64,000 nt of DNA, taken from positions 62,001 through 126,000 of the forward strand of contig NZ_FNIN01000002.1 in assembly GCF_900104045.1 (NCBI RefSeq), read 5' to 3'. Within the stretch, counting starts at the first letter, position 1; each line of letters begins with the position of its first letter. Shown in pieces: positions 14,128-50,147 of the stretch. The notes under the pieces were generated by a model that was not told the origin of the DNA, searched no databases, and saw only the letters and a list, made by a program, of their open reading frames with translations. A program made the translations under genes and the position numbers. The stretch comes from Desulfonauticus submarinus (GTDB taxonomy: Bacteria; Desulfobacterota; Desulfovibrionia; Desulfovibrionales; Desulfonatronovibrionaceae).

Positions 14128-14360
14128 AAATGTCCTGAAGAGTTAGGGAAGGCTAAAAGAAAGGGTTATATGAAATTAAAACCCCGGAAGGCCGTGTAGC
14201 GAGGCATTTTGAACCTCTTTTGTATAGGTGGGCGCCAAAGTATTTCCTTTAGGCTTCCTCTTTTAACAGAGGCATGCACACCAGAAATACACAATGGCTC
14301 CCAAGAGGTGGGTGTTGGCTCAAAATATACTCTCACTATCACGTACCTTCCAGGACATTT
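14128..14360 (-). repeat. Long-range 10-bp inverted repeat bracketing the 6S RNA gene
   Basis: AAATGTCCTG at 14128-14137 is the exact reverse complement of CAGGACATTT at 14351-14360. In the minus-strand transcript, 5' AAATGTCCTGGAAG could pair with CUUCAGGACAUUU some 210 nt later, followed by UUAUU. The 5' arm overlaps the 6S closing stem, so the two pairings compete. Confidence 0.6.
14182..14355 (-). ncRNA. ssrS: 6S RNA
   Basis: About 174 nt of non-coding sequence between zapA and rny, the position of 6S RNA in many proteobacteria. In the minus-strand RNA the ends form a 9-bp closing stem, CCUGGAAGG with CCUUCCGGG (one G-U pair). The remainder is long and can fold into a rod, with CCACCUCUUGGGAG towards the middle. 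6S RNA mimics an open promoter and binds sigma70 holoenzyme. Its 5' end is only a few bases from the zapA stop, so it may be processed from the zapA transcript. Boundaries are approximate. Confidence 0.8.
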
Positions 14361-42596: not shown

Positions 42597-43517
42597 ATGA
42601 GACAAAAAACCTTAAAAAAAACTATAAGCTGTGCAGGTATAGGACTTCATGAAGGTAAAAAAGTAAAGCTTACTCTAAAACCTGCAGCTGAAAATACAGG
42701 CATAGTGTTTTGGTTAAGAAAAAATCATAATGTCCATGCCTTTAATTTAAATCCCTATCTTGTTACTGAAACCACTTTAGCTACCACCATTGGCTACAAA
42801 GATAAACAAATAGCTACAGTAGAGCATTTGCTTGCAGCTATTCAAGGTTTAGAAATAGATAACTTAATTATAGAAGTAGAAGGAGATGAAATCCCTATAA
42901 TGGACGGCAGTGCTACTTCTTTTGTTTTTTTAATGCGTTCTGTTGGGATAAGAAAACAACATGCACCTAAAAAAGTTCTGGCTATAAAAAATAAAATAGA
43001 ATTTAAAGATGGAGATAAAAAAATAATAGCTAGGCCTTATCCTGGGTTAAAAGTAAAGTATCATATAAATTTTCCCCATCCTCTTATTGGAAAACAGACC
43101 TTTTGTTATTCTAATTCTTCAGAAAACTTTATAAAACATTTAGCAAAAGCAAGAACTTTTGGTTTTTTACAACAAGTAGAACTTCTAAAAAAAATGGGAA
43201 AGGCAAAAGGTGGTTCTCTAGAAAATGCAATTGTTTTAGATGAATATAATGTAATAAACCCAGATGGCTTGAGATTTAAAGATGAATTTGTACGCCATAA
43301 GACGTTGGATTTCTTAGGAGATATGATGTTATTGGGCCTTCCAATGTGGGGATACTTTGAAGTCTATTTTTCTGGACATGCTTTTAATAACCAATTTGTC
43401 CGATTCTTAGACAAAAATAAAAACTTTTATCTTCAAGAATTAACTTTAAATCAAGAAATGGATCAGCTAAAATTAGATCCAAATCCATCAGGTCTTAAAG
43501 AACCTGTTATGGCCTAA
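42597..43517 (+). CDS. lpxC: UDP-3-O-acyl-N-acetylglucosamine deacetylase
   Basis: 306-aa zinc enzyme for the committed step of lipid A synthesis, showing a Gram-negative LPS-bearing cell. Motifs: CAGIGLHEGKKV at the N-terminus, VEHLLAAIQGLEIDN (zinc His, about residue 78), DGSATSFV, then RFKDEFVRHKTLDFLGDM (zinc His and Asp, about 225) and FSGHAFNNQ (catalytic His). AAGGAG precedes ATG. Its stop codon overlaps that of the convergent DUF1858-like gene. Confidence 0.97.
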   Translation: MRQKTLKKTISCAGIGLHEGKKVKLTLKPAAENTGIVFWLRKNHNVHAFNLNPYLVTETTLATTIGYKDKQIATVEHLLAAIQGLEIDNLIIEVEGDEIPIMDGSATSFVFLMRSVGIRKQHAPKKVLAIKNKIEFKDGDKKIIARPYPGLKVKYHINFPHPLIGKQTFCYSNSSENFIKHLAKARTFGFLQQVELLKKMGKAKGGSLENAIVLDEYNVINPDGLRFKDEFVRHKTLDFLGDMMLLGLPMWGYFEVYFSGHAFNNQFVRFLDKNKNFYLQELTLNQEMDQLKLDPNPSGLKEPVMA

Positions 43518-43723
43518 TTAGAACTGATTTTTCGTATTGTCTCAATTATATAAGAACAATCTAATTTATATTTTTTACAAATCATCTCCAAAGGTGTAAA
43601 AAGTTCTTTACAAAGTAAACATACTCCAAGCTCTTCTCCTAATTGTCTAAAATATTGTTCAATGCTTTTATTCTCACTTACAATATCTAATAAAGTAAGG
43701 TTAAGAATATCTTTTATTTCCAC
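43514..43723 (-). CDS. Small DUF1858/ScdA-N-like protein
   Basis: 69-aa helical protein. The pattern of an N-terminal DIL/IVSENKSIEQYF helix, a GVCLLCKELFTPLE turn with Cys35 and Cys38, and a C-terminal KYKLDCSYIIETIRKI helix recalls DUF1858/ScdA N-terminal domains. I cannot confirm this without a profile search. It overlaps the kinase-like gene by 23 bp and is last in the yedE-tusA cluster, which suggests a role in that pathway. Confidence 0.65.
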   Translation of the reverse strand: MEIKDILNLTLLDIVSENKSIEQYFRQLGEELGVCLLCKELFTPLEMICKKYKLDCSYIIETIRKISSN

Positions 43724-44573
43724 TTAATACTGTCCTTAAAGCCTCAGGAATTTTCTTTATAATGTCTATTATTTGTGTTGCTGGAGTAGGTTTGGCTAAG
43801 CTACCAGCTAATCTATTTACTTTTGCTCCCAAAAATAAAGATTCTTCCCATGAGAATCCGGCCCTAACTAAAGCAGAGACAATTCCTGTTAAAGTATCTC
43901 CTGTTCCTCCTATTGCTTCTAATGCAGGTTCGCAAGGAGAGTCTACTGCTTTTAAAATTTCACCTTTCTTTACAATATAATCTTTTGCTCCCTTTACCAA
44001 AAGGTACTTGGCAGCATTTTTATGCTGCACTGAACGCCTAATAAGCTCCTCTGTGTTTTCTTCTTGATGCAAAATAAATCCTCTAGTATAAAAAGGATGT
44101 GGGGCACATTCATCTGCCAAAAATGCTAATTCTCCAATATCTGGGGTAAAAAGATCATACTTAGAAGCTTGTCCACTCATTTTAGCAGCATACATATGAC
44201 CAGCATCTGCAATTAACTTCGGCTGACAAGATAACTCTTCAATCGCAAGAAGCATCTTTATCTCCCAATCTATATTGGGGAGAAGATAGTGAAAAACTAT
44301 TAGAGTAGGCTTTAAGCTTCCTAAGTTATTAATTAAATAATTATAAACTTTTTGACTGCCATTGCCTTTGCCAATATCTCCTCCTAAAACCAAGAAAGGG
44401 AACTCTAGATTTAAGACCTCACAACAAACACATACTGCTCCGGCCAATGCAGGAGTCCCTCTAGTTATAGGGATAATCTTGTTCTCTATCTTGAGCTCAA
44501 AATTATCAAACAAAACTTTACCAGCTAAAAGACCAAAATCCTCCTGGGGAAATGTTCCAACTAGGATAAACAC
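43701..44573 (-). CDS. Ribokinase-fold protein related to NAD(P)HX dehydratase/carbohydrate kinases
   Basis: 290-aa protein with the ribokinase-like C-terminal signature AIGGTGDTLTGIVSALV (about residues 233-249), where the Asp is the usual catalytic base. LIADAGHM, DLFTPDIGELAFLADE and LLVKGAKDYIVKKG support the same fold. It resembles the NnrD/YjeF C-terminal domain more than a sugar kinase, but has no YjeF N-domain. Its place inside the yedE-tusA-DUF3343 cluster, overlapping both neighbours, suggests a pathway-specific role not captured by the NAD(P)HX repair label. Substrate unknown. Confidence 0.75.
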   Translation of the reverse strand: MFILVGTFPQEDFGLLAGKVLFDNFELKIENKIIPITRGTPALAGAVCVCCEVLNLEFPFLVLGGDIGKGNGSQKVYNYLINNLGSLKPTLIVFHYLLPNIDWEIKMLLAIEELSCQPKLIADAGHMYAAKMSGQASKYDLFTPDIGELAFLADECAPHPFYTRGFILHQEENTEELIRRSVQHKNAAKYLLVKGAKDYIVKKGEILKAVDSPCEPALEAIGGTGDTLTGIVSALVRAGFSWEESLFLGAKVNRLAGSLAKPTPATQIIDIIKKIPEALRTVLSGNKRYS

Positions 44574-45121
44574 TTCTTCTTAAGCTCCTCAAATGCCATA
44601 CCTAAAGCATAACCGCACAAAGTATGACTCAATTTCTTAGGATTTGAAATCTCAGTAATCTTTTTCCCTACAAGAGCAAAAGCAAGGTAAGGTACATCCG
44701 GACAACCTCCTCCTGACACATTAACAATTACAAGTGTATGTTTATCTATAGTTAGCTTCATATTAGCTGCTCTAACCATTAAAAAATTCCCAAAATCTTT
44801 CACTTGAAACACATTAACAGGCCTTAAAGACGTAGAAAATGGGAAAAAATCAAGAGGTTCTAATCCTCTTTTTTTTAAATGTGTTATGCATCTAGGAACT
44901 TCTATTAATTCTATCTCTAACCCTAAATCACATCCTGTTCTTATTTCTGCTGGAGGACCAATTACCCGAACGTTTACACCTTCTTCTTTTAATATTCTTT
45001 CGCCAGCTATAACTTCACTTGTATTAGAAAAAACAAGAATTCCCTTATCCTTAGCTTGAAAGTTTTTATTCTTCCAAAACCTCTCAATGTTTTTTATCCA
45101 TACTTTTAAAAAGTTGAACAT
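44561..45121 (-). CDS. DUF3343-domain protein with conserved C-terminal extension
   Basis: 186-aa soluble protein. Residues about 26-75 match DUF3343 (ILVFSNTSEVIAGERILKE, GPPAEIRTGC with Cys64), a small domain often found with TusA-like and selenium/sulfur-trafficking genes. The C-terminal half is a separate unit with SGGGCPDVPYLAFALVGK (Cys140) and a terminal helix. Four cysteines in all could carry sulfur or selenium. It starts 4 bp after tusA ends and overlaps the kinase-like gene by 13 bp. Confidence 0.72.
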   Translation of the reverse strand: MFNFLKVWIKNIERFWKNKNFQAKDKGILVFSNTSEVIAGERILKEEGVNVRVIGPPAEIRTGCDLGLEIELIEVPRCITHLKKRGLEPLDFFPFSTSLRPVNVFQVKDFGNFLMVRAANMKLTIDKHTLVIVNVSGGGCPDVPYLAFALVGKKITEISNPKKLSHTLCGYALGMAFEELKKKCLS

Positions 45122-45125
45122 TATC

Positions 45126-45341
45126 TTATTTTTTAATTTTTAAGACAATTATTTCTTCACTCTCTTCTTTAATTTCTACTTCCCAACCTTTTGAACCAGC
45201 AGCCCTACTTACATTTTCTAAGGCAGTCCTAGTATCTAAAATTATTTCAAACTCTCCTTTTCCCAATTCTTTCATTTTATCTAAAGCCAAAATAACAGGT
45301 TGAGGACAAGAAAGCCCTCGTGCATCTACTGTATCTGCCAT
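45126..45341 (-). CDS. TusA/SirA-family sulfur carrier protein
   Basis: 71-aa TusA-fold protein with the active CPxP motif in GLSCPQPVILALDKMKE (Cys12). TusA proteins carry persulfide, or possibly selenium, between donors and acceptors. It lies 12 bp after yedE and just before the DUF3343 gene, the usual YedE-TusA pairing, so it probably accepts the transported chalcogen. The YedF C-terminal (DsrE-like) domain is absent. Confidence 0.9.
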   Translation of the reverse strand: MADTVDARGLSCPQPVILALDKMKELGKGEFEIILDTRTALENVSRAAGSKGWEVEIKEESEEIIVLKIKK

Positions 45342-45353
45342 TGCCTTCCTCCT

Positions 45354-46442
45354 TTAATTTATCTTCCTTCTCATGGTGAAACCTACTAAAAGACAAAAAA
45401 CTAATCCCACAATTACAGCTACCATAGCATGAGGACCAATGCCTTTTGGAGAGCTAGCCAAACCAAAATTATGAGCAAAAGCAGCTCCTACAATCATACC
45501 CAAAACAAACACTCCTGCGTCACTATCACCCTCACCAGCCAAAAAAAGTTGTCTTCCAGGACAACCTCCTGCCAAAGCAAAGGCAAGACCTGCTAAAACC
45601 ATTCCTGTAAAATTCCAAAACCAATTGGAATGAGCTACTGGTTGATGATAGAAACCTGGATGAAATTGACTCAATACTAAGTTAGTAAGAAAAGCAGCAA
45701 TAACAAGAGCAATAACACCTAAAAGCAAATGAGATTGTCTAAACAAAATAAAATCTCTAAAAGCTCCCATAGTACAAAAACGACTTCTTTGGGCTAAAAA
45801 GCCAATAAGTAAACCAATTGCGAGAGAAATTAATAATGGAGCATGCATAGCTCCTGGTCCTTTAATACTATAAAATAATACTCCACTTTTATTAACTCCT
45901 ACAATTTGAGGCGAAACAATCATTAAAATAAAAAAACCCAACATTATTAGAGGAAAAATCAAACCTACAGAAGAATAAGTATTATAGCTCCGTCCTAAAC
46001 TATAACCTTTTTTAAAAAATAAAGTACCAATCCATATTCCTACCACTAATCCAGCTAATCCAAAAAGAGCATTGCCATCGCCCCCAGCTAAGCGTAATAA
46101 AGCTCGCCAAGGGCATCCTAAAAAGACTAGTGCGCCAATCATGGCAAAAACACCTAAAACAAACCTAACTAAAGGCGCAGAACCTGACCTAGGTTTAAAT
46201 TCTCTAAACAAAAAAGCTGCTAGAAGAGAACCTAAAACAAATCCTATAATCTCTGGCCTCATGTATTGAACAACTGCAGCTCGATGCAAACCTAAGGCGC
46301 CAGCAATGTCTCGCTCAAAACAAGCCACACAAATCCCCATATTAGGAGGGTTACCTAGTTTTTGCAAAATAGGCGCTAACACTCCTATGATCGCACCTAC
46401 AACTACAATACCTAAACTGGAACTAAAAAAATTTTTCCTCAT
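45354..46442 (-). CDS. YedE/YeeE-family membrane transporter (putative selenium or thiosulfate/sulfur)
   Basis: 362-aa polytopic membrane protein with about ten transmembrane helices and an internal duplication. The conserved cysteines are arranged symmetrically: Cys38/Cys41 (GICVACFERD) and Cys110 (GCPWRALLRLAGGD) in the first half, Cys223 (RFCTMGAFRD) and Cys294 (GCPGRQLFLAGEGD) in the second. YeeE homologues move thiosulfate through such a Cys relay. The LRLAGGDGNAL form and the neighbours resemble the YedE group linked to selenium metabolism. It leads the five-gene cluster; GGAGG precedes ATG. Confidence 0.88.
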   Translation of the reverse strand: MRKNFFSSSLGIVVVGAIIGVLAPILQKLGNPPNMGICVACFERDIAGALGLHRAAVVQYMRPEIIGFVLGSLLAAFLFREFKPRSGSAPLVRFVLGVFAMIGALVFLGCPWRALLRLAGGDGNALFGLAGLVVGIWIGTLFFKKGYSLGRSYNTYSSVGLIFPLIMLGFFILMIVSPQIVGVNKSGVLFYSIKGPGAMHAPLLISLAIGLLIGFLAQRSRFCTMGAFRDFILFRQSHLLLGVIALVIAAFLTNLVLSQFHPGFYHQPVAHSNWFWNFTGMVLAGLAFALAGGCPGRQLFLAGEGDSDAGVFVLGMIVGAAFAHNFGLASSPKGIGPHAMVAVIVGLVFCLLVGFTMRRKIN

Positions 46443-46736
46443 TACTGATATGCCTCCTCTAATTAAGTTAAAAAATCACTCCTCTTAGTAAATGACAAAA
46501 ACTACAGCCTTAACACCCATCCTATCTTTTTAATATATCTCTCAAAGCAATAATTATTTCAAATAGAAATATTTGATGAAAAGGATAATAGACTATAAAA
46601 AAAAACTATACGTTGGTATTAAAAAAAGAACAATTAAGCTCTTATATTAATCTTTTAATAACACTCTGTACTGGAGAAATTAAATTATAAGAAATTAAAA
46701 TTATAGATAGGAATTAAAAGTTAAATGGATATAAAA

Positions 46737-47588
46737 TTATATTTCAGCAAGGTTCAAGTTTCTATTTAAAGATTCTTGAATCCCCTCTCCTAATAAATTT
46801 GAAGATATTAAAGTAATCACAGTCATACCCCCAGGAGCTAAAATTAAATGAGGAGCTGTAAAGATATAAGAAAATCCCTCTCTTATCATCATACCCCATT
46901 CTGGAGTAGGTGGTTGAATTCCTACTCCTAAAAAACCTAAACCAGCAATTGAAACAACCTTACGTCCAAAATCAAAAGAAGCAAGCGTTAAGGTAGGAAT
47001 TATAGCATGTGGCAATATATGTCTGGATATAATATAAAAAGGCTTTGCTCCCATTAGGTTTGTTAAGAAAACAAAATCTTCATTTTTAATTTCTATAACA
47101 GAAGCTCTAACTAACCGAGCATATTTAGGCCACGACATAATAGCCAAAATATAAATAATATTTAAAAGGGAAGTGCCTAAAAAACTAACTAAGGCCAAAA
47201 TTACAATTAAACTAGGCAAAGATAATATTATATCACTAATCATCATTAAAATCTCTTCAACAAATCCACCAAAATACCCCGATATAATACCTACAATAGT
47301 ACCGAGTAAGAATGATCCTAGCATTGTCATAAACGCTATGGAAAATGATATTCTTCCTCCATACATAATTCTAGTAAATATGTCTCGCCCAAATTGGTCT
47401 GTTCCGAAAGGATGTTTTAAACTAGGGGGTTTTAATCTATTATAAATATTTTGAGATTCGTAAGTATAAGGACTAAATAATGGACCAACTATAAAAATAG
47501 TAAACATAGCCAATAATATCATTATTCCAATAAAAATTTTTTTATTTTCTCTAAACATTTTTATATTTTGCTTCAGGATTAATAACAA
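46737..47588 (-). CDS. Peptide/nickel-type ABC transporter permease (DppC/NikC-like)
   Basis: 283-aa inner-membrane permease with about six transmembrane helices. The N-terminal PPSLKHPFGTDQFGRDIFTRIM (split at about residues 50-71) is the DppC/OppC hallmark. The EAA loop contains LMGAKPFYIISRHILPH (about 184-200). It overlaps the upstream permease gene by 38 bp and ends the minus-strand half of the transporter locus. Confidence 0.9.
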   Translation of the reverse strand: MLLILKQNIKMFRENKKIFIGIMILLAMFTIFIVGPLFSPYTYESQNIYNRLKPPSLKHPFGTDQFGRDIFTRIMYGGRISFSIAFMTMLGSFLLGTIVGIISGYFGGFVEEILMMISDIILSLPSLIVILALVSFLGTSLLNIIYILAIMSWPKYARLVRASVIEIKNEDFVFLTNLMGAKPFYIISRHILPHAIIPTLTLASFDFGRKVVSIAGLGFLGVGIQPPTPEWGMMIREGFSYIFTAPHLILAPGGMTVITLISSNLLGEGIQESLNRNLNLAEI

Positions 47589-48483
47589 AATAAGAAATAT
47601 CTGTAAGCAAATTAATTAAGGCAAAAACAAATCCAACTACAATAATACAAGCTTGTATTACAGGAAGATCTTTAGACAAAAGAGCATTTTCTAACAACAT
47701 CCCCAAACCAGGCCAACCAAAAATAGTTTCTACAATTACACTTCCTTCTAAAAGCCATCCTAATTCTAATCCTATACAAGTAATCACTGGGATTAAAGCA
47801 TTACGAAATATATAACGTTTAAAAATCAACCATCTTCCTAACCCTTTAGATTGAGCAAAAAGAATATATTCTTTTGTTAAAACATTAATTACACTCACCC
47901 GAGTTACTCTAGAAATTACAGCTATATATCCAACTGCTAATGTGAATGCGGGTAAAATTAAGCATTTTGGCATCTCTGCTCCTGCTGCTGGTAATATTCC
48001 AAGCTGAATGGAAAAAATTATCATCAAAACTATACCTAAAAAAAAATTAGGCAATGCATCACATAAAGACAAAATAACTAATAAAACTGTATCTATAAGT
48101 TTATTTCTATATATTCCACATATAAAACCAGTACTAATAGAAATTGGCAATGAAATTAAAAAAGCAAAGAACGCTAAAATACATGTCATAAAAAAACGTT
48201 CTTTTACTAATTTACTCACCTCTTCACCAGAAACAAACGATCTTCCCCAATTGCCATGAAGATAGTTTTTTAACCACCTAGTATAAAGTACAAAAGGGGA
48301 GGCATTTAAGTTGAGTTCTTCCCTAACTTTCTCAACAACTTCAGGAGGGGGGAATTCTCCCCCCATTCTCTGCCAAGCTATTAAATCTGCAGGATCTCCT
48401 GGAGTTAAAAGAAAAAGAGAGAATGAAACTATTGATAATAATATAAGTGTTAAAATAAATAAAAATAATCTTCTAAAACACAT
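47551..48483 (-). CDS. Peptide/nickel-type ABC transporter permease (DppB/NikB-like)
   Basis: 310-aa permease with an N-terminal anchor helix and about five further helices. The DppB/OppB markers are FLLTPGDPADLIAW (about residue 24) and the EAA-type loop SKGLGRWLIFKRYIFRNALIPV (about 214-235). It lies 6 bp after the binding-protein gene and overlaps the second permease. Pairs with it to form the translocation pathway. Confidence 0.9.
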   Translation of the reverse strand: MCFRRLFLFILTLILLSIVSFSLFLLTPGDPADLIAWQRMGGEFPPPEVVEKVREELNLNASPFVLYTRWLKNYLHGNWGRSFVSGEEVSKLVKERFFMTCILAFFAFLISLPISISTGFICGIYRNKLIDTVLLVILSLCDALPNFFLGIVLMIIFSIQLGILPAAGAEMPKCLILPAFTLAVGYIAVISRVTRVSVINVLTKEYILFAQSKGLGRWLIFKRYIFRNALIPVITCIGLELGWLLEGSVIVETIFGWPGLGMLLENALLSKDLPVIQACIIVVGFVFALINLLTDISYFVINPEAKYKNV

Positions 48484-48489
48484 TATTGA

Positions 48490-50031
48490 TTATTTTTTTA
48501 TCCTATTCAATTCATAACTAAATTCAGTTATATGACCATTATAATCAGATATATTACTTCTTATGGCATCAATATTTACGTAATAATCTATAAATATCAC
48601 AGGAGATTCGTTGTAAATAATATTTTGAACTTTACGATACATATTTAATCTATTTTTAAAATTAAAATCAGTTCTTGCTTGCTCTAATAAACAATCTACT
48701 TCTTGGCTCTTCCAACCATATGCTCCCCATCCCCACTTTTTACGTCCTGAATAATAATCTTGCATCATAATAAAATCAGGATCAGGAATAAAAAATAATC
48801 CCCTACTAAGTAAAATTATATCAAAATCACCTTTTTTACGAATAGATTTTATTGCTGCTACTTTTACTACCTCTAACTCGACTTTTACACCTATTTTTCT
48901 AAATTGATCCTGCAAAACTTCTGCAATAAGAGGCAATTCTGCTCTTTCTGGATAAGTAACTAATTTTATAATAAATTTTTCTTTTGTTTTTGTATTTTCA
49001 AGAATACCATCCCCATCTATGTCTTTCCAGCCAGCCTTTTCTAATAAAACTTTAGCCTGATGAATATTATAAGAATAGGGTTTAATTTTAGCAGACCATA
49101 CCAGCAGAGGAGGAAATAAAGCTCCGGCAGACATACCAGCTCCATCTAATATCTCTTTATCTATCGCTTCTCTGTTAATTGCATATTGGAGGGCACGTCT
49201 AATTCTTTTATCTCTAAAAATATTTTTTAAACAATTAAGTTGTAACATTCGAACTCTTGTTATTGGATATTTCACAATCTTAATATTGGAAAACTTAGTT
49301 AATTCTAATACACTTTGAGGAGGAATAAGTTGAGCAATATCTACTTCCCCAGACAAAATCATGGGTACTCTGCTCCTTGGATCTGGAATACTTTTTAAAA
49401 CAACTTTATCAACTTTAGCTTGATTTCCCCAATAAGAAGAAAATCTATCCAATAGAACCTCTCTCATAGAAGTAAATTTTACAACTTTAAAAGGACCTGT
49501 GGCTATAGGAGAAGTAAAATTATTCTTAGAATCAAAAGAATTGGTAGAAAGTATAGCTGTTTTTGCACAAGCTAAATAAGCAGGAAGAGGAGCAAAGGGT
49601 TTCTCTGTAACTATTAATAGAGTATATTTATCAGAGGCCTTTATTTCTTTAATTGGTACAAGCTTATCTAAGCCTGTTTTATGGAAAATAAAGCGCAAAT
49701 ATTTAGCCACATTAAAAGCATCCATAGGGCTATTATCATGAAATTTAACTCTTTTTCTAAGTTTAAATTCCCAGGTGATTTTATCCTGGTGAACACTCCA
49801 AGAAGTAGCTAAACTGGATTTTAACCTACCTTCTTTATCTACTCCAACAAGGGTTTCTGCTATATTATATCTTAATAATGGATATCCACCTTTACTAGGA
49901 TCAAGACTTTTCACAGGCCAACTTGGAATTATAACAAGTCTACTCATTCCTTTTCCTAGTTCTTTACCTATTCCATTCCCTACAGCGAAAAATAAAAGAC
50001 AAAGGCACAATAAAAACTTGATAAATCTCAT
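48490..50031 (-). CDS. Peptide/nickel-type ABC transporter substrate-binding protein
   Basis: 513-aa periplasmic protein of the SBP_bac_5 family with an N-terminal signal peptide (FIKFLLCLCLLFFAVGNGIG). SIPDPRSRVPMILSGEVDI, RALQYAINREAID and AKVLLEKAGWKDIDGDG are typical of dipeptide/nickel binding proteins. The first phrase resembles NikA closely, but the metal- or peptide-binding residues cannot be mapped reliably. GTG 50037 opens the frame two codons earlier; ATG 50031 is preferred because GGAGGG lies 5 nt upstream of it. Confidence 0.9.
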   Translation of the reverse strand: MRFIKFLLCLCLLFFAVGNGIGKELGKGMSRLVIIPSWPVKSLDPSKGGYPLLRYNIAETLVGVDKEGRLKSSLATSWSVHQDKITWEFKLRKRVKFHDNSPMDAFNVAKYLRFIFHKTGLDKLVPIKEIKASDKYTLLIVTEKPFAPLPAYLACAKTAILSTNSFDSKNNFTSPIATGPFKVVKFTSMREVLLDRFSSYWGNQAKVDKVVLKSIPDPRSRVPMILSGEVDIAQLIPPQSVLELTKFSNIKIVKYPITRVRMLQLNCLKNIFRDKRIRRALQYAINREAIDKEILDGAGMSAGALFPPLLVWSAKIKPYSYNIHQAKVLLEKAGWKDIDGDGILENTKTKEKFIIKLVTYPERAELPLIAEVLQDQFRKIGVKVELEVVKVAAIKSIRKKGDFDIILLSRGLFFIPDPDFIMMQDYYSGRKKWGWGAYGWKSQEVDCLLEQARTDFNFKNRLNMYRKVQNIIYNESPVIFIDYYVNIDAIRSNISDYNGHITEFSYELNRIKK

Positions 50032-50147
50032 TGACACCCTCCTTATTTAATAACACCATTCCCATATAAGAACTTGACAAGTAATATTTTTTAGAAAAAA
50101 ATCAACCATAAATATAACCTATATTTTTTTAATTAATAAAAATTAAA

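Follow-up and report, generated by a model that had tools for sequence, protein, structure and literature searches.

The genes for YedE, a TusA/YedF-like protein and a DUF3343 protein were proposed as selenium genes by Lin et al. 2015 (PMC5322559), who described DUF3343 as a likely selenium-trafficking chaperone of 80-100 amino acids (aa) for which no selenium-specific branch was found. According to PMC11097638, no organism is known to have a dedicated selenium transporter. It is an open question how cells import selenium and bring it to SelD without losing it among far more abundant sulfur. Here we describe a cluster of five genes that may bear on this question, located in a 64,000-nucleotide stretch of the Desulfonauticus submarinus genome (GCF_900104045.1, NZ_FNIN01000002.1, positions 62,001-126,000). 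This whole stretch is referred to as the window, and its positions are used for the coordinates below. The cluster encodes a selenium-type YedE, a TusA-like protein, a long DUF3343 protein (DUF3343L), a kinase-like protein (KIN) and a small CxxC protein. With a probability of roughly 0.68, this operon takes up a selenium species and hands it over in protein-bound form to SelD, which would make it an alternative selenium route.

The YedE-SirA/TusA-Sec lyase-DUF3343 clusters of Lin et al. 2015 are like this locus in combining a selenium YedE, a TusA/SirA-like carrier and DUF3343 in the vicinity of selD and a LysR_Se gene, but they contain a selenocysteine (Sec) lyase- or desulfurase-like enzyme and a short DUF3343 in place of the 186-aa DUF3343L and KIN found here. 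Text searches of that paper (PMC5322559) returned neither KIN nor a YjeF-like protein. The YeeE-YeeD system (TsuA-TsuB, PMC11073785) also pairs a membrane Cys-relay transporter with a TusA-family CPxP partner, but here the TsuA models failed, and there are three extra downstream genes and a selD neighbourhood. In the YTD cluster, which was redefined as yeeE-tusA-dsrEFH type II (PMC13293266), yedE-tusA likewise precedes an acceptor module of several genes, in both Desulfobacterota and Nitrospirota, but that module is DUF3343L-KIN in this locus, which contains no DsrE/F/H proteins. KIN itself shares the ribokinase fold and the GG(S/T)GD catalytic motif with the NnrD/YjeF C-terminal domain and with the hydroxyethylthiazole kinase ThiM, but it scores under both curated cut-offs, has another N-terminal half and an altered TPHPGE motif, and is obligately associated with a selenium operon. 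Literature searches returned no paper in which YedE or selenium is tied to a YjeF/NnrD-like protein, and the connection of KIN and of the DUF3343L C-terminal domain with selenium appears to be new with respect to the searchable literature.

A preliminary description of the window had reported five minus-strand genes lying within 12 bp of each other or overlapping, and all five open reading frames (ORFs) were present at the positions given there. The features are as follows:

46443-46736, minus strand: intergenic leader of 294 bp upstream of yedE, presumed promoter region (ORF map)
45354-46442, minus strand: yedE, selenium-type YedE membrane protein, predicted importer of a selenium species (TIGR04112, Pfam Sulf_transp)
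45126-45341, minus strand: tusA-like gene, CPxP carrier, predicted first cytoplasmic acceptor (PF01206)
44561-45121, minus strand: long DUF3343 (DUF3343L), N-terminal Se/S-carrier domain plus an extra C-terminal domain (PF11823)
43701-44573, minus strand: KIN ("kinase-like"), divergent NnrD/YjeF-C-type ribokinase-fold protein by its sequence (PF01256)
43514-43723, minus strand: DUF1858-like gene, optional 69-aa CxxC protein, predicted redox partner (11-member alignment)

In the ORF map, yedE and tusA are separated by 12 bp and tusA and DUF3343 by 4 bp, while DUF3343 and KIN overlap by 13 bp and KIN and the DUF1858-like gene by 23 bp. The five genes are thus spaced as in an operon, which the 294-bp leader sets apart from an upstream gene set for a nickel/oligopeptide-type ATP-binding cassette (ABC) transporter.

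YedE matched the NCBIfam model TIGR04112 (seleno_YedE) over positions 2-337 of 337 with 496.9 bits (cut-off 200) and fell under both TsuA/YeeE thiosulfate cut-offs (46.5 vs 400 bits for NF052577, and 36.9 vs 645 bits for NF041049). In the comparison of selenium YedE and YeeE profiles that the preliminary description had suggested, the selenium model therefore passed and the thiosulfate models failed widely. The TusA-like protein (71 aa) is a stand-alone TusA domain (PF01206, 63 bits, gathering score 28.6) that is closest to the N-terminal domain of YedF, a protein composed of TusA plus a DsrE-like domain; it matched the YedF model TIGR03527 in this N-domain only, with 59 bits, under the cut-off of 110. 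Its CPQP motif was kept across an alignment of 58 homologues. Outside the operon, the only related genes in this genome are one other TusA-domain gene and two YeeE-like genes of half size (175 aa), which lie as a pair apart from the selenium YedE (G000:C2:182116-183147). More divergent YedE proteins without tusA, DUF3343 or KIN were seen at loci L087-L092, with radical-S-adenosylmethionine-like genes (similarity to a heme-type hidden Markov model, HMM) a few kb off.

Conservation of the cluster was analyzed in a phylum set of 218 Desulfobacterota genomes, which were searched with TIGR04112 and in which 61 loci around the matches, the window included, were then read. At 34 of the 61 YedE loci, YedE, TusA, DUF3343L and KIN were encoded on one strand, mostly in the order found in the window, and one of these 34 loci had a broken DUF3343. 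A scan of named genomes contributed the best 80 of at least 472 KIN loci, with Desulfobacterota-type bacteria, Nitrospirota, SAR324 and Bacillota among the groups represented; DUF3343L was located adjacent to and before KIN in 78 of the 80, and the other two were a contig end and a broken copy. When each family was searched for on its own, KIN was strong in 52 of the 218 phylum genomes, and all 52 contained YedE, whole in 48 and split into two genes in four (G023, G038, G136, and G163). DUF3343L was found in the same 52 genomes and in G107, and KIN was found in none of the 118 genomes lacking YedE (p = 1e-22 for the KIN-YedE association and 8e-50 for KIN-DUF3343L). In G107, the sole genome with DUF3343L and no KIN, the DUF3343L gene is interrupted by a stop and YedE is partial, with TusA intact (L198, G107:C36:126500-130500), which looks like joint decay of the operon. 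Three of the loci with a split YedE were mapped (L195, L196, and L197, from G136, G038, and G163, respectively) and had the permuted order DUF3343L-KIN-YedE_N-YedE_C-TusA, with the DUF3343L-KIN pair intact. A split of YedE into two genes was described for archaea by Lin et al. (PMC5322559); the cases here are bacterial. In addition, the pairwise distances of KIN, DUF3343L, and YedE were correlated (r = 0.82-0.85). KIN is an obligate partner of DUF3343L and YedE. The adjacency of these genes, which the preliminary description had seen in one genome, is kept across the Desulfobacterota and in other phyla and is not a product of chance; the fifth gene is optional.

The PF11823 domain of DUF3343L, currently named Se_S_carrier in Pfam, occupies residues 26-93 of the 186-aa protein, in the N-terminal half only (69.8 bits, gathering score 25). 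The C-terminal half, which contains the motifs RAANMK, SGGGCPDVP, and TLCGYAL, had no Pfam match. Three cysteines were invariant in an alignment of 33 DUF3343L proteins: Cys64, Cys140 (in SGGGCPDVP), and Cys169 (in TLC). An AlphaFold2 (AF2) model of the protein had a mean confidence (pLDDT) of 84.9, and a fold search with it returned no match in the PDB at E < 1e-3, and only weak ACT/PII-like matches at E of about 1e-2. No NCBIfam model of June 2026 reached its cut-off for the KIN or the DUF3343L of the window. DUF3343L supplies a selenium-linked branch of DUF3343, which had eluded earlier work.

KIN matched PF01256 with 40 bits (gathering score 27). Its best profile, the NAD(P)H-hydrate dehydratase model TIGR00196, gave 42.6 bits and did not reach the cut-off of 129.85, and the best E-value against this model among 33 KIN proteins was 1.3e-11. 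The same 33 proteins have about 40 invariant columns, including the motifs GGTGD, PDxxE, and ADAxxMY. The KIN of the window groups with a Desulfonauticus sequence. The AF2 model (pLDDT 92) has a ribokinase-superfamily fold, and the best Foldseek matches in the PDB include THI20, TM0922, ThiD (hydroxymethylpyrimidine-phosphate kinase), and PdxK (pyridoxal kinase). Comparison with the profile of true Nnr by hhalign (97%) aligned the C-terminal half, in which GG(S/T)GD is kept and TPHPGE is changed to TPDxGE; the N-terminal half is different, and the N-terminal NnrD motif is gone. Its sequence places KIN as a divergent member of the NnrD-type ribokinase-fold proteins, distinct from the NAD(P)HX repair enzyme, and motif and fold suggest that KIN may be ATP-dependent. 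The same genome encodes a complete 520-aa bifunctional Nnr elsewhere, and the reading of KIN as the NnrD repair enzyme was rejected on this ground.

The YedE loci that lack KIN indicated what it may stand in for. At eight of the 27 KIN-minus YedE loci, tusA was followed by a pyridoxal-phosphate (PLP) enzyme of the TIGR01977 family and a short DUF3343, an arrangement found at none of the 34 KIN-plus loci (p = 8e-4). This PLP enzyme also resembles the model of the Sec lyase SclA (399 bits, under the cut-off of 525). Genome-wide, the TIGR01977 enzyme was found in 39 of the 48 KIN-minus YedE genomes vs 14 of the 52 KIN-plus genomes (p = 4e-8), and the anticorrelation persisted after collapse to families (p of about 7e-4) and within both dsrA-positive and dsrA-negative genomes. 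Most YedE genomes (91 of 100) contained one or the other, mostly as alternatives, and the D. submarinus genome had no TIGR01977 match at E <= 1e-100. We infer that DUF3343L-KIN and the PLP enzyme with its short DUF3343 fill the same operon slot, so that YedE systems are split into two largely alternative versions, a KIN type and a PLP-enzyme type.

The link of the KIN type to selenium rests on operon adjacency and on the YedE model. selD was found at 36 of 114 KIN loci, where about 0.6 would be expected, and on the same strand at 34 of them. At 18 KIN loci the selD HMM match begins no more than 500 bp downstream of KIN, and selD lies directly downstream of KIN in, for example, G075, G072, G211, and G161. 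The arrangement crosses phyla, with KIN-selD loci in Nitrospirota (L140) and Bacillota (L162). Among the other neighbours of KIN loci were the selenium-specific LysR regulator NF040786 and, sometimes, selB. In D. submarinus a Sec-type selD with an in-frame TGA, adjoining a LysR_Se-type gene, is encoded on another contig than the operon, and the genome also contains selB and tRNA-Sec. A search for selenocysteine in homologues of the five proteins (570 matches) found none at a conserved Cys, and a single TGA in a poor fragment, L071. Fifteen KIN loci (including L050, L058, L072, L074, L131, and L135) have a double-cubane-cluster reductase (NF040772) and a CoA-dehydratase-type activase nearby; such genes were also listed near selenium genes by Lin et al. 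(PMC5322559), and the reductase may act as a strong reductant in selenium chemistry.

The preliminary description had proposed trafficking of selenium or sulfur, in a cluster expected to track selD and with no defined step for its last three genes. The selenium side of this proposal is favored by the YedE model, the conservation of the cluster, the adjacency to selD and the Sec machinery of the genome. Tracking of selD was borne out at the level of the operon (36 of 114 loci), while the genome-level test was uninformative (p = 0.21). The lack of a defined step does not apply to DUF3343, which Lin et al. had already described in 2015 as a likely selenium-trafficking chaperone, and holds for KIN, for the C-terminal half of DUF3343L and for the place of the CxxC protein in this operon.

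In the mechanism proposed here, a selenium compound would cross the membrane through YedE and would be received by the CPxP cysteine of the TusA-like protein, by analogy with the hand-over of thiosulfate from YeeE to YeeD (PMC11073785). DUF3343L would then take over the selenium on its conserved cysteines, and KIN, together with DUF3343L, may catalyze an ATP-consuming activation or release step ahead of SelD, with the CxxC protein as an optional reducing partner. What the analysis shows is the sequence families, the conserved operon, the obligate association of DUF3343L, KIN and YedE, the adjacency to selD and the anticorrelation with the PLP enzyme; that the cargo is selenium and not sulfur, the order of the hand-over and the use of ATP by KIN are all inferred. 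A more specific version of this mechanism, which is possible though on balance doubtful, is that DUF3343L and KIN form a two-component, ATP-driven selenium hand-over machine, in which an NnrD-fold kinase energizes the transfer of protein-bound selenium to SelD and possibly rejects sulfide. Such a machine would need neither Sec lyase nor free selenide and would be preferred in sulfide-bathed organisms; if this is true, selenium metabolism would have an enzymatic step that is new to any organism. DUF3343L and KIN are two named candidates for assay, an obligately paired carrier and predicted ATP-dependent enzyme whose genes lie next to yedE and selD.

Several points weigh against a role in selenium delivery. 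Movement of selenium has not been demonstrated experimentally for any YedE, and in Methanococcus maripaludis yedE was up 5.3 log2-fold on selenium depletion, while deleting the gene had no clear effect on uptake (PMC11097638). The ATP use predicted for KIN is read from motif and fold only. Replacement of the PLP enzyme by KIN is not strict, because 14 genomes carry both. At the level of whole genomes, co-occurrence of KIN with selD is uninformative because selD is nearly universal in the phylum (194 of 218 genomes), as is selB, and so cannot tell selenium from other functions; the corresponding test for YedE and selD gave p = 0.001. Finally, KIN genomes were richer in dsrA (38 of 52 vs 17 of 48 KIN-minus YedE genomes, p = 2.5e-4, not corrected for kinship), which is compatible with a need to pick selenium out of sulfide and would also fit a role in sulfur metabolism.

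Such a sulfur role would be that of a YTD-type operon (yeeE-tusA-dsrEFH type II), in which sulfane sulfur or thiosulfate enters through YedE and is passed by TusA to cytoplasmic sulfur enzymes, with selenium being unrelated. The yedE-tusA core is the same, YTD clusters occur in the same phyla (PMC13293266, PMC9751629), and TusA family proteins are sulfur carriers, which together with the dsrA enrichment would speak for this explanation. We consider it unlikely: YedE matches the selenium model rather than TsuA, selD and the selenium LysR gene are neighbours, 14 of the 52 KIN genomes lack dsrA, and no DsrE-like protein was found among the identified frequent neighbour clusters. There is also no DsrE/F/H domain in the five proteins, and the reading as a YTD or sulfur-disproportionation operon was rejected for its lack of a DsrE domain. 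Equally improbable is a role other than supplying SelD, in which the operon would serve to sense or control selenium status or to detoxify an excess of selenium (or sulfide), with KIN as a nucleotide-binding regulator. YeeE-family proteins can be signalling units, as in SoxT1B (PMC11582611), and no DUF3343 or KIN protein has a demonstrated enzymatic activity, but the invariance of GGTGD and many other residues among the 33 KIN proteins points to an enzyme, the operon has no constant DNA-binding partner, and the anticorrelation with an enzyme of the selenium-releasing type suggests a metabolic slot. Least probable is that KIN is a second NAD(P)H-hydrate dehydratase for metabolite repair that is present in a selenium operon by happenstance. 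This would account for the PF01256 score above gathering, for TIGR00196 being the best profile and for the retained GGTGD, but not for the large shortfall against the TIGR00196 cut-off, the missing N-terminal NnrD motif or the altered TPHPGE, and the genome already contains a complete Nnr. A housekeeping repair function would also leave unexplained why KIN is always accompanied by DUF3343L.

The fifth gene, although genuine, is not always part of the operon. It was present at 10 of the 34 KIN loci of the phylum set and 31 of the 80 named KIN loci, mostly directly after KIN, and G33, C35, C38, L41, and F42 were invariant in an alignment of 11 members. The copy in the window had no Pfam or NCBIfam match and did not reach the gathering score of PF08984 (DUF1858), while seven of the 11 family members matched that model weakly (best E-value 5.9e-5) and one homologue matched TIGR03980 under its cut-off. 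The label "DUF1858-like" given in the preliminary description is therefore fair at the level of the family. In the window, this gene overlaps a convergent lpxC-like ORF, ending at 43517, by 4 bp.

A promoter scan of the leader found 14 sites vs 11.3 expected, no excess over chance, and the promoter and terminator scan as a whole gave no signal beyond shuffled sequences. Directly upstream on the same strand (46737-50037, minus strand) are the ABC transporter genes, which are NikA/B/C-like and all under the equivalog cut-offs; they perhaps supply nickel for NiFe(Se) hydrogenase, or are unrelated. Elsewhere in the window, a 6S RNA was identified at 14177-14359 on the minus strand (RF00013, 106.9 bits).

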